Positions 38,309 to 48,218 of a DNA stretch of 64,000 nucleotides are shown here, in pieces (position 1 is the first letter of the stretch; each line of letters starts with the position of its first letter). Made by a program: the position numbers and the translations under genes. The stretch is from the NCBI GenBank assembly GCA_030524035.1, contig JAUNHG010000001.1:1-64000 (forward strand). Direction: 5' to 3'. The notes beneath the pieces are model-generated. The model was not told where the DNA came from and searched no databases. It saw nothing but the letters and a program-made list of their open reading frames with translations. The stretch is from Kocuria sp. (GTDB lineage Bacteria > Actinomycetota > Actinomycetes > Actinomycetales > Micrococcaceae).

Positions 38309-39925
38309 TCAGGTAGTGCGCTGCTGCTTGATCCGGTTGGTTAGTTCGGTGACCTGATTAAAGATCTGACGCCGCTCTGCCATCAGAGTCCTGATTTTCC
38401 GATCAGCGTGCATCACTGTGGTGTGGTCTCGTCCACCCAATTCCTGTCCGATCTTGGGCAATGACATATCCGTGAGTTCACGTAACAGGTACATCGCGAT
38501 TTGACGGGCTGTGACCAACGTTCTGGTTCTGGATTTGGACTTCAATTCATCTAGTGAAATATCGAAGTAGGCCGCAGTTTGCCCCAGGATCGTGGCCGCC
38601 GTGATCTCGCCACCTTCGTCATCTGTGATCAAGTCCTTGAGCACCAACTCTGCCAAGGGAAGATCGACATCCTGCTTATTTAAAGAGGCGAAGGCCGTGA
38701 CTCGAATCAAAGCGCCTTCAAGTTCACGGATGTTGGTTGAAATTCGGGATGCGATGTACTCCAGAACTTCCGGGGAAGCCTTCATGCCATCCGCATCTGC
38801 TTTTTTGCGCAAAATAGCAATCCGCGTTTCCAGTTCAGGCGGTTGGACATCCGTGATCAGTCCCCACTCGAAGCGTGAGCGCATCCGATCCGCAAAACCG
38901 GTCAGCTGTTTAGGCGGGGTGTCGGAGGTGATCACAATCTGTTTTTCGTGATTGTGCAACGAGTTGAAGGTATGGAAGAACTCTTCTTGGGTATGTTCCT
39001 TACCCGCTAAGAACTGGATGTCGTCGATCAGCAACATGTCTACGTTGCGGTAGATCTCTTTGAACGACGAGCCTTCATCATCACGGATCGAGTTGATGAA
39101 GTCGTTGGTGAATTCTTCCGAATTCACGTATCGCACCCGCATATTCGGGTAAAGTCGCTTGCCATAATGCCCAATCGCGTGTAGCAAGTGGGTCTTGCCC
39201 AACCCGGAGTCACCATAAATGAACAAGGGGTTGTAGGCCTTAGCCGGAGTTTCTGCCACGGCAAACGCTGCTGCATGTGCGAAGCGGTTGGATTGACCAA
39301 TCACAAACGTTTCAAAGACATACTTAGGGTTTAACCGTGCCGACGAGTTCCATTCAGCGGCTTCGGCATTCGCAGTGCCGTGGTCATCAGAAGTGGGCTC
39401 TGCATTCTGTTTCTGTTCTTGTGTGGCCTGGTCAGCTGTCGTAGTAGGTGACGGGGAAGAGGCCTGAGGGGCTCCCACCGATGCTGAGTCAACGGAAGGG
39501 TCGTTTCCCTCATGCTCCGGTCGGTTCACGGCTGGTTCGGTGCCGTGCATGTTGTGATTCGACGCCGTCGCTCGTTCAGCTTCCAGCTCCTCCAAAGGAG
39601 GTAATGAACGGGTGGAGGGGTGAGATACGGGCACCTCCTGTTGTGCAGTGGCGGTTTCTAAGTCCGTATCCACCACAACAGCCATCAAAGTGTCCGCACC
39701 AAAAACCTGTGTCACAGCTTGTGTCACAGCTTGGGCGATTGTGGATTGAAAAACCTCACGGGTTAACTCATTCGGAACAGCCATCAGCAACGTACTGCCC
39801 ATCAAACCCCGGGGTTGAGCCAACCCCAAGAAGCCACGATGCCGGGCACTGATCTCAGGATTTTGCGTGAGAACTTCCATGCACCGAACCCACTGAGTGT
39901 CGAGCTGATTTTGCTGAAGACTCAC
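38309..39925 (-). CDS. dnaA: chromosomal replication initiator DnaA
   Basis: This 538-residue AAA+ initiator has domain I (about 1-90), an acidic low-complexity domain II (about 95-190), the ATPase domain with Walker [10 protein letters not shown] at about 238-246 and Walker B LLIDDIQF, and the C-terminal DNA-binding domain with the signature [15 protein letters not shown]. The GTG at 39925 has GGAG upstream and yields the family-type start ([18 protein letters not shown]). The gene faces oriC on its 3' side and a second DnaA-box-bearing region on its 5' side. Confidence 0.97.
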
Positions 39926-40252
39926 TGTTGCAGGCTCCGGGGCTCTCTCGTTGGGCGGCCGGGTGGTACCGGCTTGGGGGCAGTATCCGCAATTTTCCAC
40001 AGAGTTGTTCACAGCAGTGGATATCGCTTTGGGGGCGGGACACGAACGCCAGCCTAGAGCACCATACAGGGGTGTTCCTAGCGGCAAAACGCGGCAGATC
40101 ATAACTACATTTTTGTAGTTACACTTCTGTTCCCGCGCCCCTGTTGGGAAAGGAGCGGTTGAAGTTATCCACAAGATTTTTTCGTATCCGTGCACAGCTG
40201 TGGGAAAAGCAAAGGTCACTCAGAACCGTTGGTGAGGTTTCTTCGGCAATAG
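39926..40252. promoter_or_regulatory. dnaA upstream region with a DnaA box
   Basis: This part of the dnaA-rpmH intergenic region has a perfect DnaA box TTATCCACA at 40165-40173. It likely contains the dnaA promoter with autoregulation by DnaA; the exact -35 and -10 elements were not determined. An open frame for the longer dnaA start (to 40219) crosses it but lacks a family match. Confidence 0.6.
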
Positions 40253-43192: not shown

Positions 43193-43873
43193 GTGATGAC
43201 ATTGACCCAGGCTGATCGTTTGGCTCCGCAACCCCAACAACCACCGATACTTGACGGGGAGGCTTTGAGTGCTGCTCAGAAAATTTTTGGTGATCGCTTA
43301 CCGCTAGCTACGCGATATGTAGCGCACCTTGCGTCATCAGGAATTGTTCGCGGGCTGATTGGGCCACGTGAAGCGCCTCGATTGTGGGAACGTCACGTCC
43401 TAAATTGTGCAGTAATTCAAGAGTTGATACCGGACTCGGTTCGAGTGGCGGATGTAGGATCAGGTGCTGGATTGCCAGGCCTTTGTCTAGCTTTAGCTAG
43501 GCCCGATGCGCATTTCACGTTGATTGAGCCATTGGAACGCCGCGTGACGTGGTTGGAGGAAGTCGTTAACGACCTTGAGCTGGAGAATGTCAACATCTTG
43601 CGCGTACGTGGTGAGCATGCTGCAGAGCACGTTGATCAAATCCAAGTTGTTACTGCACGAGCAGTGTCAGCGTTGTCGGGACTCTTGGATATCACGCTGC
43701 CACTACTGCATGACGGCGGAGAGCTTTTGGCATTAAAGGGGCGCAGTGCTGGTGATGAAGTAGATAAGGCCCGTAAACAGCTCAAAAAGTGGAAAGCTCA
43801 GAGTGTGGAAGTCTTCACGGTTGGGGTTGATCTACTGGAAGAGCCCACAACAGTAGTTCGTGTCAGGCTGTGA
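43193..43873 (+). CDS. rsmG: 16S rRNA (guanine-N7) methyltransferase RsmG
   Basis: This 226-residue SAM-dependent methyltransferase modifies a guanosine in the 530 loop of 16S rRNA. The SAM-binding motif reads VADVGSGAGLPGLCLAL and a conserved RPDAHFTLIEPLERRVTWLEEV follows. Both GTG 43193 and ATG 43196 are possible starts. It lies between jag and parA as in Mycobacterium (gid-parA order). Confidence 0.94.
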   Translation: MMTLTQADRLAPQPQQPPILDGEALSAAQKIFGDRLPLATRYVAHLASSGIVRGLIGPREAPRLWERHVLNCAVIQELIPDSVRVADVGSGAGLPGLCLALARPDAHFTLIEPLERRVTWLEEVVNDLELENVNILRVRGEHAAEHVDQIQVVTARAVSALSGLLDITLPLLHDGGELLALKGRSAGDEVDKARKQLKKWKAQSVEVFTVGVDLLEEPTTVVRVRL

Positions 43874-44018
43874 GCAGACCGCCCTCACCTAACTCTTTGT
43901 GCGGCATGCCTGCAGACAGCATCCACGGCAAGAAACATGTAACGGTAGGGTGGATACGCCAGTCGTACGATTCACGCATCTAGTGATATAGATCACATGG
44001 ATCATGGGAGGCTCCTTG

Positions 44019-45047
44019 ATGACAAGCTACCAATCAGAGGAAACGGAAGATGTTGGTATGCCGCCTGATCCCGCTGGCTCTCCGCGCACAATGATTCCTG
44101 ACCGAGCTCGAATTGCTGTGCGTGAACCCCAGTCCACCCAAGCATCAGTGCAGCGAAGTGCGGGCGACAGTCCGCTCGGAAGGAAACTCGTGGAAGAGAA
44201 CCAACGCCGGGCACGGTTGCAGCACCTGAACGTGCAGTCTCCGGATCAGACCAGGGTGTTTACCATCAGTAACCAGAAGGGTGGAGTGGGTAAAACCAGT
44301 ACGTCCGTCAATTTAGCGGTTGCTTTAGCGAAACACGGACAGAACGTTCTGGTGATTGATAATGATCCTCAAGGAAATGCTTCCACGGCGTTGGGGGTGC
44401 CCCATAGCACTGACGTCAATGGTGTTTATGACGTTCTTGTGGACGAAATGCCTTTGAAAGACGTCGTAGTTCCTTCCCCAGAACATGAGCTTCTCGTTGT
44501 TGCCCCGGCTACGATTGATCTGGCGGGTGCTGAGATCGAACTGGTTTCTATGGTGGCTCGTGAGCAGCGGCTTTCACGTGCAATTGCTCAGTACCAGAAA
44601 GATCGGGAGGAAAACGGCTTAGCTCGCCTGGATTACATTTTTATTGACTGTCCTCCAAGCTTAGGTCTGCTGACGATCAATGCGTTCGTTGCGGCGACGG
44701 AAGTCTTAATTCCGATCCAATGCGAGTACTACGCATTGGAAGGGTTGAGTCAGCTGATCAATAACATCACTATGATCCAGAAGCATTTGAACCCTGAGCT
44801 CAAGATGTCCACGATCATGATGACCATGTACGACGGCCGAACTAATCTAGCGTCACAAGTGGCAGAGGAAGTACGCAGTCACTTCCCGGAACAGGTTTTA
44901 GAGACCATGATCCCTCGGTCAGTCAGAATTTCAGAAGCCCCTAGTTACCAGCAGTCAGTGATTACTTATGACCCGCAGTCTACGGGGGCGTTGGCTTATC
45001 TAGAGGCGGCAGCTGAGATTGCCTATCGTGGTGCGCCGGCCGGGTAA
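44019..45047 (+). CDS. parA: chromosome-partition ATPase ParA
   Basis: This Walker-type ATPase drives segregation of the ParB-parS origin complex. The deviant Walker A KGGVGKTSTSVNLA is about residue 87 of this start; IDNDPQGNAST and the LDYIFIDCPPSLGLLTINA region follow. I choose ATG 44019 because GGGAGG lies seven bases before it; an ATG at 44004 would add five residues. Residues 1-80 form a Pro/Ser-rich extension seen in other actinobacterial ParA proteins. A parS-containing hairpin ends the gene. Confidence 0.95.
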   Translation: MTSYQSEETEDVGMPPDPAGSPRTMIPDRARIAVREPQSTQASVQRSAGDSPLGRKLVEENQRRARLQHLNVQSPDQTRVFTISNQKGGVGKTSTSVNLAVALAKHGQNVLVIDNDPQGNASTALGVPHSTDVNGVYDVLVDEMPLKDVVVPSPEHELLVVAPATIDLAGAEIELVSMVAREQRLSRAIAQYQKDREENGLARLDYIFIDCPPSLGLLTINAFVAATEVLIPIQCEYYALEGLSQLINNITMIQKHLNPELKMSTIMMTMYDGRTNLASQVAEEVRSHFPEQVLETMIPRSVRISEAPSYQQSVITYDPQSTGALAYLEAAAEIAYRGAPAG

Positions 45048-45092
45048 GATTTCGCGGAGTTGTTGAACGATTGACCTTTTAACCCCTTGGCT

Positions 45093-45124
45093 AACCCCCG
45101 TTTCACGTGAAACGGGGGTTTTTT
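45093..45124 (+). terminator. parA terminator built on a parS site
   Basis: A perfect 28-base palindrome (45093-45120) has the parS core GTTTCACGTGAAAC at 45100-45113 extended by CCCCC/GGGGG. A T run follows to 45124. The hairpin would be an efficient Rho-independent terminator, so the same bases serve as ParB site and terminator. Confidence 0.85.
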
Positions 45125-45233
45125 CATAAGTTTCAGCATGCACGATTAACGAATTTACCGTAGTAGTGCTGTTGCTGGGCTCTATCTTGCACAGACCTTG
45201 TTCATGATTTAGAACTGATGGCGCGATAACTTG

Positions 45234-45249
45234 TGTTTCACGTGAAACA
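45234..45249. promoter_or_regulatory. parS site upstream of parB
   Basis: TGTTTCACGTGAAACA is an exact parS consensus, 62 bases before the parB start. In this position ParB binding could also affect parB transcription. Confidence 0.92.
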
Positions 45250-45311
45250 CCTCCGCGTAGTAAACCCACACCGTAGAATGATTCAGATTATCAAATGGAT
45301 GGGAGAGCACG

Positions 45312-46898
45312 ATGGCGGAACGACGTCGAGGATTAGGCCGAGGACTGGGAGCCCTTATCCCCAGCACACCCCCAGAAACAGACGAGATCACAACCGATCC
45401 GATACAAGGTGAAGAACCTCAGGGGCCTCATAAGCCTGTTTCACGTGAAACAGAGAATTTTCAGTCCATGTCATCAGCGCCCAGCGCAAAAGATTCGACC
45501 ACTTCTAAGGATGTAGGACGTACTCGCACTGCTCGCAAGGCTGACGCAACAAAGACGCCGAAAAATACAAAACCCAAAGCAGCAGCTGGCCAAACTTCGA
45601 GAAAAGTGGACCAACTTCCAGAGCCCACGGGTAAATCAACCGATTCTGCGCAAGATTCCACGAAGCCTGGAGCTAAAGCGTCTGGTGGTGTTTCACGTGA
45701 AACAAGTAGTAAGTCTCGGAAACGAAGCACCGCAACGGAGGCTCGACAAAAAGCGATGAAAGCCAGGATGGAGATGGGGGCTGTATCCCGTCGTGCAGCA
45801 GCAAACCGACCTTCCGACATGTTTTTTACTCCTACTCCATCCGAAAATCGGAGGGAAGAACAGCCTCAGTCTCTAGGTCGCGTTGGCGAAAATGCTCACC
45901 CTGGTGAGGGCTTTGGGGAAAATAATGCTGGTGTTTCACGTGAAACGGACACATCGCTTCCCTCTGAGTTATCTGTTGACGATGGTTCTGCGTCGCATGA
46001 AAGTAAGAGCGGGTCAGTCAACGATCTCCCTGACACCACAGGAGAGCAAGATACAGACCTCCAAATAGTTCCCGGAGCTACCTTTGTTGAACTTGATGTT
46101 CAAGAGATTCACCCTAACCGCAAGCAGCCTAGGCAAGTTTTTGATGAAGATGAGCTGGAAGAACTTGCGTACTCCATCCGCGAGTTAGGTGTTTTACAGC
46201 CGGTTGTCGTCAGGGTTTCACGTGAAACGGGGGGTCCTGGATATGAACTAGTGATGGGTGAGCGCCGTTGGCGTGCTACTCAACAAGCTGGATTAGAGCG
46301 GATTCCTGCGATTGTTCGTGAAACCAGTGATAACGATCTGTTGCGAGATGCTTTACTAGAAAATCTGCACAGATCGCAACTTAATCCCTTAGAAGAAGCC
46401 GCTGCTTATCAACAGCTCATGGATGAGTTTGGTGCTTCACAAGAAGAGTTATCACGTCGTATTGGTCGCTCTCGTCCGCAGATCAGCAATACATTGCGGT
46501 TACTGCGCCTGCCCGCATTGGTTCAGCGACGCGTAGCAGCAGGGGTTCTTTCCGCAGGTCATGCCCGTGCTCTTTTGGCACTAGAGGATCCCGCTGAAAT
46601 GGAACGTTTGGCTCAACGTATTGTGGCCGAGGGTCTTTCAGTGCGCGCAACAGAAGAAGCAGTGACTTTAAGTAAGCGGCGGAAACCAACCGCTCGTCGT
46701 AGTGCAGCCATGCAAGAACGCCACCGGGAGCGTTTAGATTACATAGCGGACGCTTTTGCCGATAAGTTAGACACAAGTGTCAAAATTAACTTGGGTGCCC
46801 GCAAAGGCAAAATGACTATTGAGTTTGCTTCCGTTGAAGATCTCAACCGCATCATTTCAGTGCTTGATCCGGATAATCTTCCAGAGAATCAAGACTGA
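45312..46898 (+). CDS. parB: chromosome-partition protein ParB, with long N-terminal extension
   Basis: This 528-residue CTP-dependent DNA clamp binds parS and spreads from it. Residues 1-250 are an extended, Lys/Ser/Thr-rich, probably disordered region, with three copies of VSRET (starting at 43, 127 and 208). The conserved domain begins at about 255 ([25 protein letters not shown]). It has the CTP motif GERRWRA at 316-322, the helix-turn-helix [27 protein letters not shown] (about 375-401) and a C-terminal dimer domain. A fourth VSRET (302-306) lies in a loop before the CTP motif. Each VSRET is encoded by a parS site. Most ParB proteins are 300-400 residues. Confidence 0.95.
45437..45452. 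promoter_or_regulatory. parS site inside parB (1)
   Basis: TGTTTCACGTGAAACA, an exact parS consensus, encodes VSRET at ParB residues 43-47. Confidence 0.92.
45689..45704. promoter_or_regulatory. parS site inside parB (2)
   Basis: TGTTTCACGTGAAACA, an exact parS consensus, encodes VSRET at ParB residues 127-131. Confidence 0.92.
45932..45947. promoter_or_regulatory. parS site inside parB (3)
   Basis: TGTTTCACGTGAAACG carries the exact 14-base parS core and encodes VSRET at ParB residues 208-212. Confidence 0.9.
46215..46228. promoter_or_regulatory. parS site inside parB (4)
   Basis: GTTTCACGTGAAAC is the exact parS core. It encodes VSRET at residues 302-306, in the loop just before the GERRW CTP-binding motif. 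Confidence 0.9.
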
Positions 46899-46948
46899 AA
46901 TGCTTGTGCCCCCTCCCTGATCGCAGGTTGAGGGGGCACAAGCATTTC
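46897..46948. terminator. hairpin between convergent parB and cwlM
   Basis: A perfect 19-base-pair inverted repeat (46897-46915 with 46930-46948) starts at the parB stop codon. No long T run follows, but the position between convergent genes fits a two-way terminator. Confidence 0.7.
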
Positions 46949-46980
46949 AGGAGTAGATCAACAGAGCTGATGGTGGTCTT

Positions 46981-46996
46981 TGTTTCACGTGAAACG
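46981..46996. promoter_or_regulatory. parS site at the end of cwlM
   Basis: TGTTTCACGTGAAACG carries the exact parS core, two bases beyond the cwlM stop codon. It is the last of seven exact sites between 45.1 and 47.0 kb. Confidence 0.9.
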
Positions 46997-46997
46997 A

Positions 46998-48218
46998 TCA
47001 GTTGTTTACGGGTTTTTGAGATAAGCGGTGCATCAAGTCAAGGGTACTTATGGTGCCAGTTGGCATGTCATCCGCAGCCTGAAGATACATCCGCTGCAAA
47101 GCAACCACTACCGCGTTGGCCATGTGCGTGCGGTATTCGGGGTCTTCCAGGTGTTGGCGCTCCGCACGATTGGAAATATATCCAACATCTACAGAAAAAG
47201 TAGGTGCAGTGTTGAGTCGCAGTAGACTCCATTGCCGACCATGCGCCCCTAGGTCTAGAGCGCCAGTTCGTGCCACGATTTCACGTAAAGTTAGCGTGGC
47301 TCCTCGCTGACCGATAGGCGATAACGTGGCTTCCTCACGATCCGTATCACCCCAGTAGAAGACTGAAACACCGTGGGCAGCAGGAGAAGGATTCCAATCA
47401 CAGTCCAGAACGACTACGACTGCATCCCGCTGGGAATCGAGAGCTTTTCGAATGCTGGGCTGAACATCTATCTGTGTACCGTTCCGATCAGACAGAGGTT
47501 CTTGTGATACTAGGAGTGGATTGGCTCCCATAGCAGATAATAATTCATGAATACGAATAGCAATATCGCTGGTGATACGTTGAGCGGTATCCCGATAGCT
47601 CTCTGGTGCTCCGCCAGGGATCACGGGAGCTTGCAGCTGCATGGCAGGCACAATAACAATTTTTTGAGAACGAATCGCATCTGAGGTGCGTTCCAAACGG
47701 TGATAATCCCGGAGCGAAAAAGCTTTGGAGTTTGATATTTTCTTATTTACCCTAGCCAAAGCTGCAATGGTCTGATTATTGACCATACCAGTTGGATTCA
47801 GCCCCAAGTTTTGTTGCAGTTCCACCACAGCATGATGGGTTTTCTCATCGAAAGTTCCCGTGATGTGTCCGTAGTACAACCCCAACATGGACAAATTGTC
47901 CTGGAGGCGTTGGACATCATCCCCACGCAATGGTTCTTGAGGATCCCAGTGCAGAAGTCGTTCACCAAAGGTGTACTGAGCTTCGTTAAGCCTGCGTTCG
48001 GTTTCCGGGCCGACCACACCGTCGACCACCAAACCGTGACCCTGTTGAAATGCCCGTACCGCATTTTCAAGCTCAGCGTCAAAAGCGGTGGGATCCGTAA
48101 CATCGCGTGGGTCTAACGCGACGGTGGCTGCACCGGCGCGGATGAGCCGCTCGCGCAAACCAACCACGCGTCGATCACGGATGCCGTGCTGCATAGCTTG
48201 TGTGATGTCTTCGGACAT
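46998..48218 (-). CDS. cwlM: CwlM-type regulator of peptidoglycan synthesis (pseudo-amidase)
   Basis: This 406-residue protein has two peptidoglycan-binding-type domains (about 25-85 and 105-170) and a C-terminal N-acetylmuramoyl-L-alanine amidase fold (about 195-385). The zinc-ligand positions are lost. IVPAMQLQAP stands where active amidases have DPGHGG, LDCDWNPSPAAHG replaces the second His motif, and the catalytic Glu region reads VDVGYISN. In Mycobacterium, CwlM is likewise inactive as an amidase and, when phosphorylated by PknB, activates MurA; the same role is inferred here. The ATG at 48218 gives the same length as the M. tuberculosis protein. The gene order parB-cwlM-trxA-trxB is conserved. 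Confidence 0.88.
   Translation of the reverse strand: MSEDITQAMQHGIRDRRVVGLRERLIRAGAATVALDPRDVTDPTAFDAELENAVRAFQQGHGLVVDGVVGPETERRLNEAQYTFGERLLHWDPQEPLRGDDVQRLQDNLSMLGLYYGHITGTFDEKTHHAVVELQQNLGLNPTGMVNNQTIAALARVNKKISNSKAFSLRDYHRLERTSDAIRSQKIVIVPAMQLQAPVIPGGAPESYRDTAQRITSDIAIRIHELLSAMGANPLLVSQEPLSDRNGTQIDVQPSIRKALDSQRDAVVVVLDCDWNPSPAAHGVSVFYWGDTDREEATLSPIGQRGATLTLREIVARTGALDLGAHGRQWSLLRLNTAPTFSVDVGYISNRAERQHLEDPEYRTHMANAVVVALQRMYLQAADDMPTGTISTLDLMHRLSQKPVNN

Follow-up and report, generated by a model that had tools for sequence, protein, structure and literature searches.

Exact parS sites spelling VSRET within parB of a Kocuria-type actinobacterium: probable selection on the palindrome rather than on the peptide

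The parAB region of the DNA analysed here (a stretch of 64,000 nucleotides, referred to as the window) carries seven exact copies of the parS core, GTTTCACGTGAAAC, four of which are located within parB in one and the same reading frame, where each spells the peptide VSRET. In other bacteria, parS of this consensus loads ParB-CTP clamps. We consider it very likely that the cluster is a compact chromosomal centromere of a Kocuria-type actinobacterium, in which the palindromes are selected as loading sites for ParB-CTP and VSRET is a passenger. That ParB binds here and that the sites serve in segregation would follow from the known function of the consensus. The features concerned are the following.

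44004..45047, plus strand: parA, 347 aa, AAA_31
45312..46898, plus strand: parB, 528 aa; ParB_N 259-353, HTH_ParB 356-452, ParB_C 482-518; residues 1-249 mostly a low-confidence tail
45093..45120, plus strand: terminator-like hairpin 3' of parA, 12-bp stem, 4-nt loop and T run, containing a parS core
45100..45113, no strand assigned: parS 1, in the parA-parB gap, within the hairpin
45235..45248, no strand assigned: parS 2, 63 bases from its end to the parB start codon
45438..45451, no strand assigned: parS 3, parB codons 43-47, VSRET
45690..45703, no strand assigned: parS 4, parB codons 127-131, VSRET, just ahead of the tail helix
45933..45946, no strand assigned: parS 5, parB codons 208-212, VSRET
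46215..46228, no strand assigned: parS 6, parB codons 302-306, VSRET, at the end of ParB_N strand 298-302 and the start of loop 303-310
46982..46995, no strand assigned: parS 7, intergenic, with parB on one side and a convergent amidase gene on the other
45735..45833, plus strand: parB codons 142-174, an island conserved within the tail, made up of helix 142-162 and RPSDMFFTP

An earlier note on this DNA had described seven exact sites in under 2 kb, four of them in frame within parB with VSRET at residues 43, 127, 208 and 302, and inner spacings of 252, 243 and 282 bp; all of this was confirmed, the four inner sites lying on codon boundaries and the cluster spanning 1,896 bp from first base to last. 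A scan of the window allowing up to three mismatches returned 11 parS matches, the seven exact ones included, against a mean of 2.85 in shuffled sequence, and none of 100 shuffles reached 11. In the whole source assembly (G000; 2,315,724 bases in seven contigs, 99.75% complete), no parS with zero or one mismatch was found outside the cluster, and the four further parS-like sites each have two mismatches. The cores match the TGTTNCACGTGAAACA consensus, parA and parB are adjacent, and dnaA (38309-40219) is located about 5 kb away, as expected of a ParABS cluster. Similarly, the product of parB has the make-up of a cognate ParB, with PF02195, PF17762 and PF23552 above cut-off, an N domain with the GERRW motif, an HTH and a dimerisation domain; the solved chains matching it best belong to ParB family proteins and Spo0J. 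Among named relatives, those found to be closest are Kocuria species.

For comparison, 177 loci (the window plus 80, 26 and 70) were reduced to 149 by merging those with identical ParB end and length, a set in which copies cut differently at contig ends may survive, and 60 class-level loci were added to give 209: 27 from Kocuria, 88 from other Micrococcaceae (including L043, named only Micrococcales) and 94 from other Actinomycetes. The 70 added genomes were chosen among those listed of 245, and the 60 class-level loci are 60 of 128. The counts exclude loci L081-L108, L135, L206 and L207; for L134, the sequence is a short contig. ParB sites were counted only downstream of the likely start, and one VPRET and one frame-1 site in L114 and a frame-2 site in L113 were excluded as lying upstream of it.

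Throughout the related parB genes, VSRET and the palindrome occur together. Among the 149 loci, 130 of 132 ParB VSRET peptides are spelled by an exact parS, and the other two carry one synonymous mismatch each, so that VSRET was kept under a codon change in only 2/132; in the 209 loci the figure is 139/143. From codon usage, the expected share of the parS spelling of V-S-R-E is 0.0032 on average (96 parB genes) and 0.015 in the gene of the window. The same spelling is used elsewhere, in 119/121 VSRET peptides of ParA and 3/3 of GidB (149 loci). Thus, the suggestion of the earlier note that parS sites double as coding sequence is supported, and the observation it had named as speaking against this, VSRET without the palindrome in related genomes, is confined to the near-exact cases just given.

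Sites that deviate from the exact core are informative as to what is conserved. Of 21 in-frame ParB sites with one mismatch (149 loci), 19 alter the peptide and two are synonymous; 15 have the mismatch at half-site position 4, and GTTCCACGTGAAAC and its reverse complement account for 14, five of which read VPRET and nine VSRGT. Synonymous changes make up 10 of the 42 possible in the parS frame, and the one-mismatch sites show no excess of them (2/21; 4/23 in the 209 loci). The mismatch falls at position 4 or 11 in 23/36 coding sites (ParB and ParA) and in 63/99 intergenic ones (P=1.0), and synonymous-class mismatches, at 4/36 in coding sites, are somewhat above the intergenic 4/99 (P=0.21); as related loci share sites by descent, the events behind these counts, like those behind the others given here, are not independent, and the Fisher tests should be taken as approximate. 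In the published consensus, as given in the available text of that study, half-site position 4 is N (PMC2346475). Since coding and intergenic spectra are alike and position 4 is free in the consensus, the sites appear to drift where ParB binding should tolerate it, regardless of the peptide. Taken together, these sequence comparisons indicate selection on the palindromic DNA and not on the VSRET peptide.

The reading frame is strongly biased as well. The palindrome can be read as VSRET, in a frame containing TGA, or in a third frame spelling FHVK, and the exact coding sites in ParB, ParA and GidB of the 209 loci number 301 in frame 0 (VSRET), eight in frame 2 (FHVK) and none in frame 1; a recount restricted to ParB adds one to frame 0, and ParA and GidB sites were counted in open frames with an ATG or GTG upstream. 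These numbers leave out 19 exact sites in ParA or GidB open frames without an ATG or GTG upstream (eight in frame 0, 11 in frame 2), with which the ratio becomes 309:19. In L141, L194, L223, L262 and others, parS follows a codon read as M, so that ParA or GidB possibly starts with MFHVK; some of the left-out sites may be true starts, with the FHVK frame tolerated at the extreme N-terminus. The only TGA-frame ParB sites behind a likely start, in L055 and L209, have one mismatch each, which removes the stop and gives FTGN. From the composition of ParB tails outside parS, VSRET is favoured over FHVK at roughly estimated odds of 101:1, 58:1 and 87:1, one value for each of the three groups. Thus, the choice of frame would follow from coding limits, as one frame holds a stop and FHVK is disfavoured by tail composition, and for ParB, the only protein whose tails were so analysed, no function of the peptide is needed to account for the bias. 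The frame rule was also considered as special to ParB and rejected: ParA leans likewise, as does GidB more weakly (14 to 4, or 19 to 9 with the left-out sites), in line with the expectation that other coding genes would show a frame preference.

These data also bear on the idea that VSRET is a functional motif of ParB, for example a partner-binding peptide, to which the parS match would be secondary. The strong co-occurrence and the single frame in ParB would suit such a motif, as would the conserved tail island that parS 4 adjoins. However, ParA and GidB show the identical peptide wherever parS falls, the one-mismatch ParB sites mostly change the peptide with a spectrum as in intergenic parS, the codons are almost fixed, and the positions of VSRET within ParB shift between species. 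We therefore regard a functional motif as highly improbable, and VSRET as a selected peptide was rejected on co-occurrence, codon usage, decay spectrum and frame. Similarly, the view of VSRET as a repeat of ParB that deserves attention for its own sake was not supported, considering its presence in other proteins, its decay like that of non-coding parS and a frame bias about as tail composition would give.

We propose, instead, that the palindromes would be maintained by selection as loading sites for ParB-CTP clamps, and that the 5' part of parB may accept 14-bp palindromes because the tail that it encodes is long, hydrophilic and under little constraint. Such palindromes would in practice be limited to the VSRET frame, given TGA in one of the other frames and FHVK, foreign to the tail, in the other; VSRET would be a passenger because only its frame is workable. 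In an AlphaFold2 model of the ParB of the window (27-row alignment), the mean pLDDT of 64.8 is low because of the N-terminal tail, residues 1-249 of which are mostly of low confidence and are read as disordered. The earlier placement of three VSRET copies in a disordered extension thus fits the model for most of the tail, with the exception that residues 142-162 are predicted to form a helix. This helix belongs to an island in the otherwise variable tail (residues 142-174), where it is followed by a motif R-P-x-[DE]-h-F-F that occurs in the ParB tails of 27/27 Kocuria, 86/88 other Micrococcaceae and 20/94 other Actinomycetes. The genome also encodes a second ParB_N-like protein, a weak match in a 351-aa open frame (G000:C5:252320-252613; L108, L135, L207).

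In-frame parS sites within parB are not unique to the window. In Kocuria, the parB genes of 25/27 genomes carry exact in-frame sites, 60 in all, with two in a K. rhizophila locus (L006), and the parB of the window ties with that of L122 for the highest count, four. Exact parS in the whole genome range from 0 to 8 per Kocuria genome and total 137 over the 27, with 128 in the parAB stretches examined. In the other groups, exact sites in parB were found in 55/88 Micrococcaceae and 9/94 Actinomycetes. The ParB tail has a median length of 326 residues in Kocuria, 158.5 in other Micrococcaceae and 72.5 in other Actinomycetes, and is thus, between groups, longest where sites in parB are most frequent. 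Within Kocuria, however, tail length was rejected as a straightforward explanation of how many sites parB holds, the correlation being negative (Spearman -0.41, P=0.03); it is weakly positive in other Micrococcaceae (0.26) and not clear in other Actinomycetes (0.12, P=0.24). The two Kocuria without exact parS in parB, L113 and L114, both have in-frame GTTCCAC-type sites. L114 (G010) has no exact parS at all; its eight sites, genic and intergenic alike, are the asymmetric GTTCCACGTGAAAC, as if all had changed together.

It might be argued that the inner sites are due to chance or are functionless relics kept by descent alone. Some sites in parB have indeed decayed, to VLREA in L111 and ASRET in L113, and according to the accessible part of a study on P. 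aeruginosa, a single bound parS suffices for proper segregation there (PMC7022226). However, all four inner sites of the window are exact even though its ParB core shares 91% identity with the nearest ones found, none of the 27 Kocuria lacks an in-frame site that is either exact or of the GTTCCAC type, and one genome has the identical variant at all eight sites. At the aligned place of parS 4, the six closest relatives read VSRET (L109-L112) or VSRGT (L113, L114). In our view, relics are very unlikely.

In contrast to the three sites in the tail, parS 6 lies within a folded domain. In the model, residue 302 ends strand 298-302 and is followed by loop 303-310, strand 311-315 and GERRW at 316-320, with a mean pLDDT of 87 for residues 301-310; the loop is four residues longer than in the three best solved chains shown, all variants of one ParB. 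The location of this VSRET in a loop directly before GERRW, as given in the earlier note, therefore stands as to strand end and loop start, and 'directly' is loose, as a further strand intervenes. Likewise, the site sets the protein sequence here only in part. Over 148 of the 149 loci, the loop most commonly starts with P-S-R-E (P in 95, S in 107, R in 53 and E in 104 of the 148), and its usual form in the family is R-P-S-x-E. Relatives thus often have S, R and E at these places, and only V, seen in 2/148 (the window and L111), goes with parS. The loop begins with P followed by TCACGTGAAAC in L109 and L113, and with R followed by TCACGTGAAGC in L112. It might thus be hypothesized that the loop was already R-P-S-R-E(-T), with parS-like codons in some relatives, and that an exact site would have arisen via the first codon; recruitment from this loop by first-codon changes (P to V) is probable, with the direction of change judged from the sequences. 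In the tree of ParB cores, the two carriers fall into a five-member group with L109, L110 and L112; since this group has no resolved branching, the tree agrees equally with one gain of the loop site and with two, and it is also possible that parS 6 is an older site lost in relatives.

Sites outside the coding sequence frequently lie in hairpins. The region after parA (45088-45128) folds at -21 kcal/mol with a z of -5.0, and the parS 1 palindrome extends by 7 bp, just below the 8-bp class considered here; the terminator scan alone is no proof, as three terminator-like sites were found in the region with 3.3 expected. The hairpin after parB (46893-46955, -47.5 kcal/mol) does not include parS. 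In Kocuria and other Micrococcaceae (115 loci), 97 exact parS, in 89 loci, lie at most 200 bp past the parB stop. A perfect palindrome extends at least 8 bp beyond parS on either side at 48 of these 97 sites but at only 1 of 207 coding sites tested, and at 10/39 sites after parA. Long palindromes tipped by parS occur past parA or parB in the window (45093-45120), L109, L119, L127 and others. Of 54 sites past parB with an extension of at least 4 bp (149 loci), only 18 have a T run, or a preceding A run, of at least four beside them; many of these hairpins thus lack a clear T tract and are no more than putative terminators. A search of the open-licence literature turned up no paper that appeared to deal with parS as a terminator or with parS-centred terminators, and the two mentions of 'terminator' in PMC2346475 concern a vector and sequencing. 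It might be speculated that the Micrococcaceae parAB region is an integrated device in which parS serves as coding DNA, in the ParB tail, at the ParA start and, in two relatives, in a loop of the CTP-binding domain, and also as the tip of terminators after parA and parB, coupling ParB loading, termination and parA:parB dosage, with excess ParB damping its own genes; we hold this to be unlikely.

A further possibility, raised with the discovery of the sites, is a self-limiting circuit in which ParB on parS within or before parB blocks RNA polymerase, so that excess ParB lowers its own synthesis. The sites do span the parA-parB gap and parB; as reported in the available sections of two studies, excess ParB reduces the mRNA of genes near parS1-4 in P. 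aeruginosa (PMC5521831), and the authors of work on M. bovis BCG proposed in 2008 that ParB on the parS in parA may block its transcription (PMC2346475). Against this, the same portion of the P. aeruginosa work has native ParB repressing genes at the intergenic parS3/4 and not at the intragenic parS1/2 (PMC5521831), and adjacent genes are described as unaffected in B. subtilis in the text available (PMC7022226). A promoter scan of 43850-47100, a weak test, gave a single match inside parA and none near parB. Any such circuit would more probably work through the two intergenic sites than through the inner four, and the data from both species suggest that it would be possible mainly at ParB excess or via sites 1 and 2. 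We consider the circuit rather unlikely, and published work argues against strong self-repression via intragenic parS at normal ParB levels. Compared with ParB loading, effects on parB transcription would be secondary.

The locus clearly illustrates how, in nature, a signal in DNA can impose itself on a protein: the centromere runs through a coding gene whose frame and amino acids follow DNA constraints. It also cautions against taking VSRET for a motif of the protein. With the GTTCCAC-type sites that occur naturally, the function of the DNA can be told apart from that of the peptide, and the terminator-like hairpins centred on parS are a possible link between segregation and parAB expression. 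In the open-licence literature searched, nothing was found on multiple in-frame parS within parB, nor was the term 'VSRET'; parS positions were reportedly surveyed by Livny et al. in 2007. Several known systems share features with the window. P. aeruginosa parS1-4 similarly form a tight near-origin cluster with intragenic and intergenic members, and the available text of these papers does not place them in parB (PMC7022226, PMC5521831). M. bovis BCG likewise has parS in the coding sequence of a partition gene, with an effect on its own operon proposed in the accessible part of the report (PMC2346475). There, however, the gene is parA and not parB, with one coding site and no multi-site parB array. 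B. subtilis parS-359, which lies towards the 3' part of its gene, shares the frame of the sites described here and encodes VPRET within a linker. Like those of the window, it is a chromosomal parS near the origin and inside the coding sequence of parB (spo0J), as stated in the part of the publication at hand (PMC4442127). In contrast to this single site, the parB of the window contains four, of which three fall in the N-terminal tail and the fourth in the folded domain that binds CTP.
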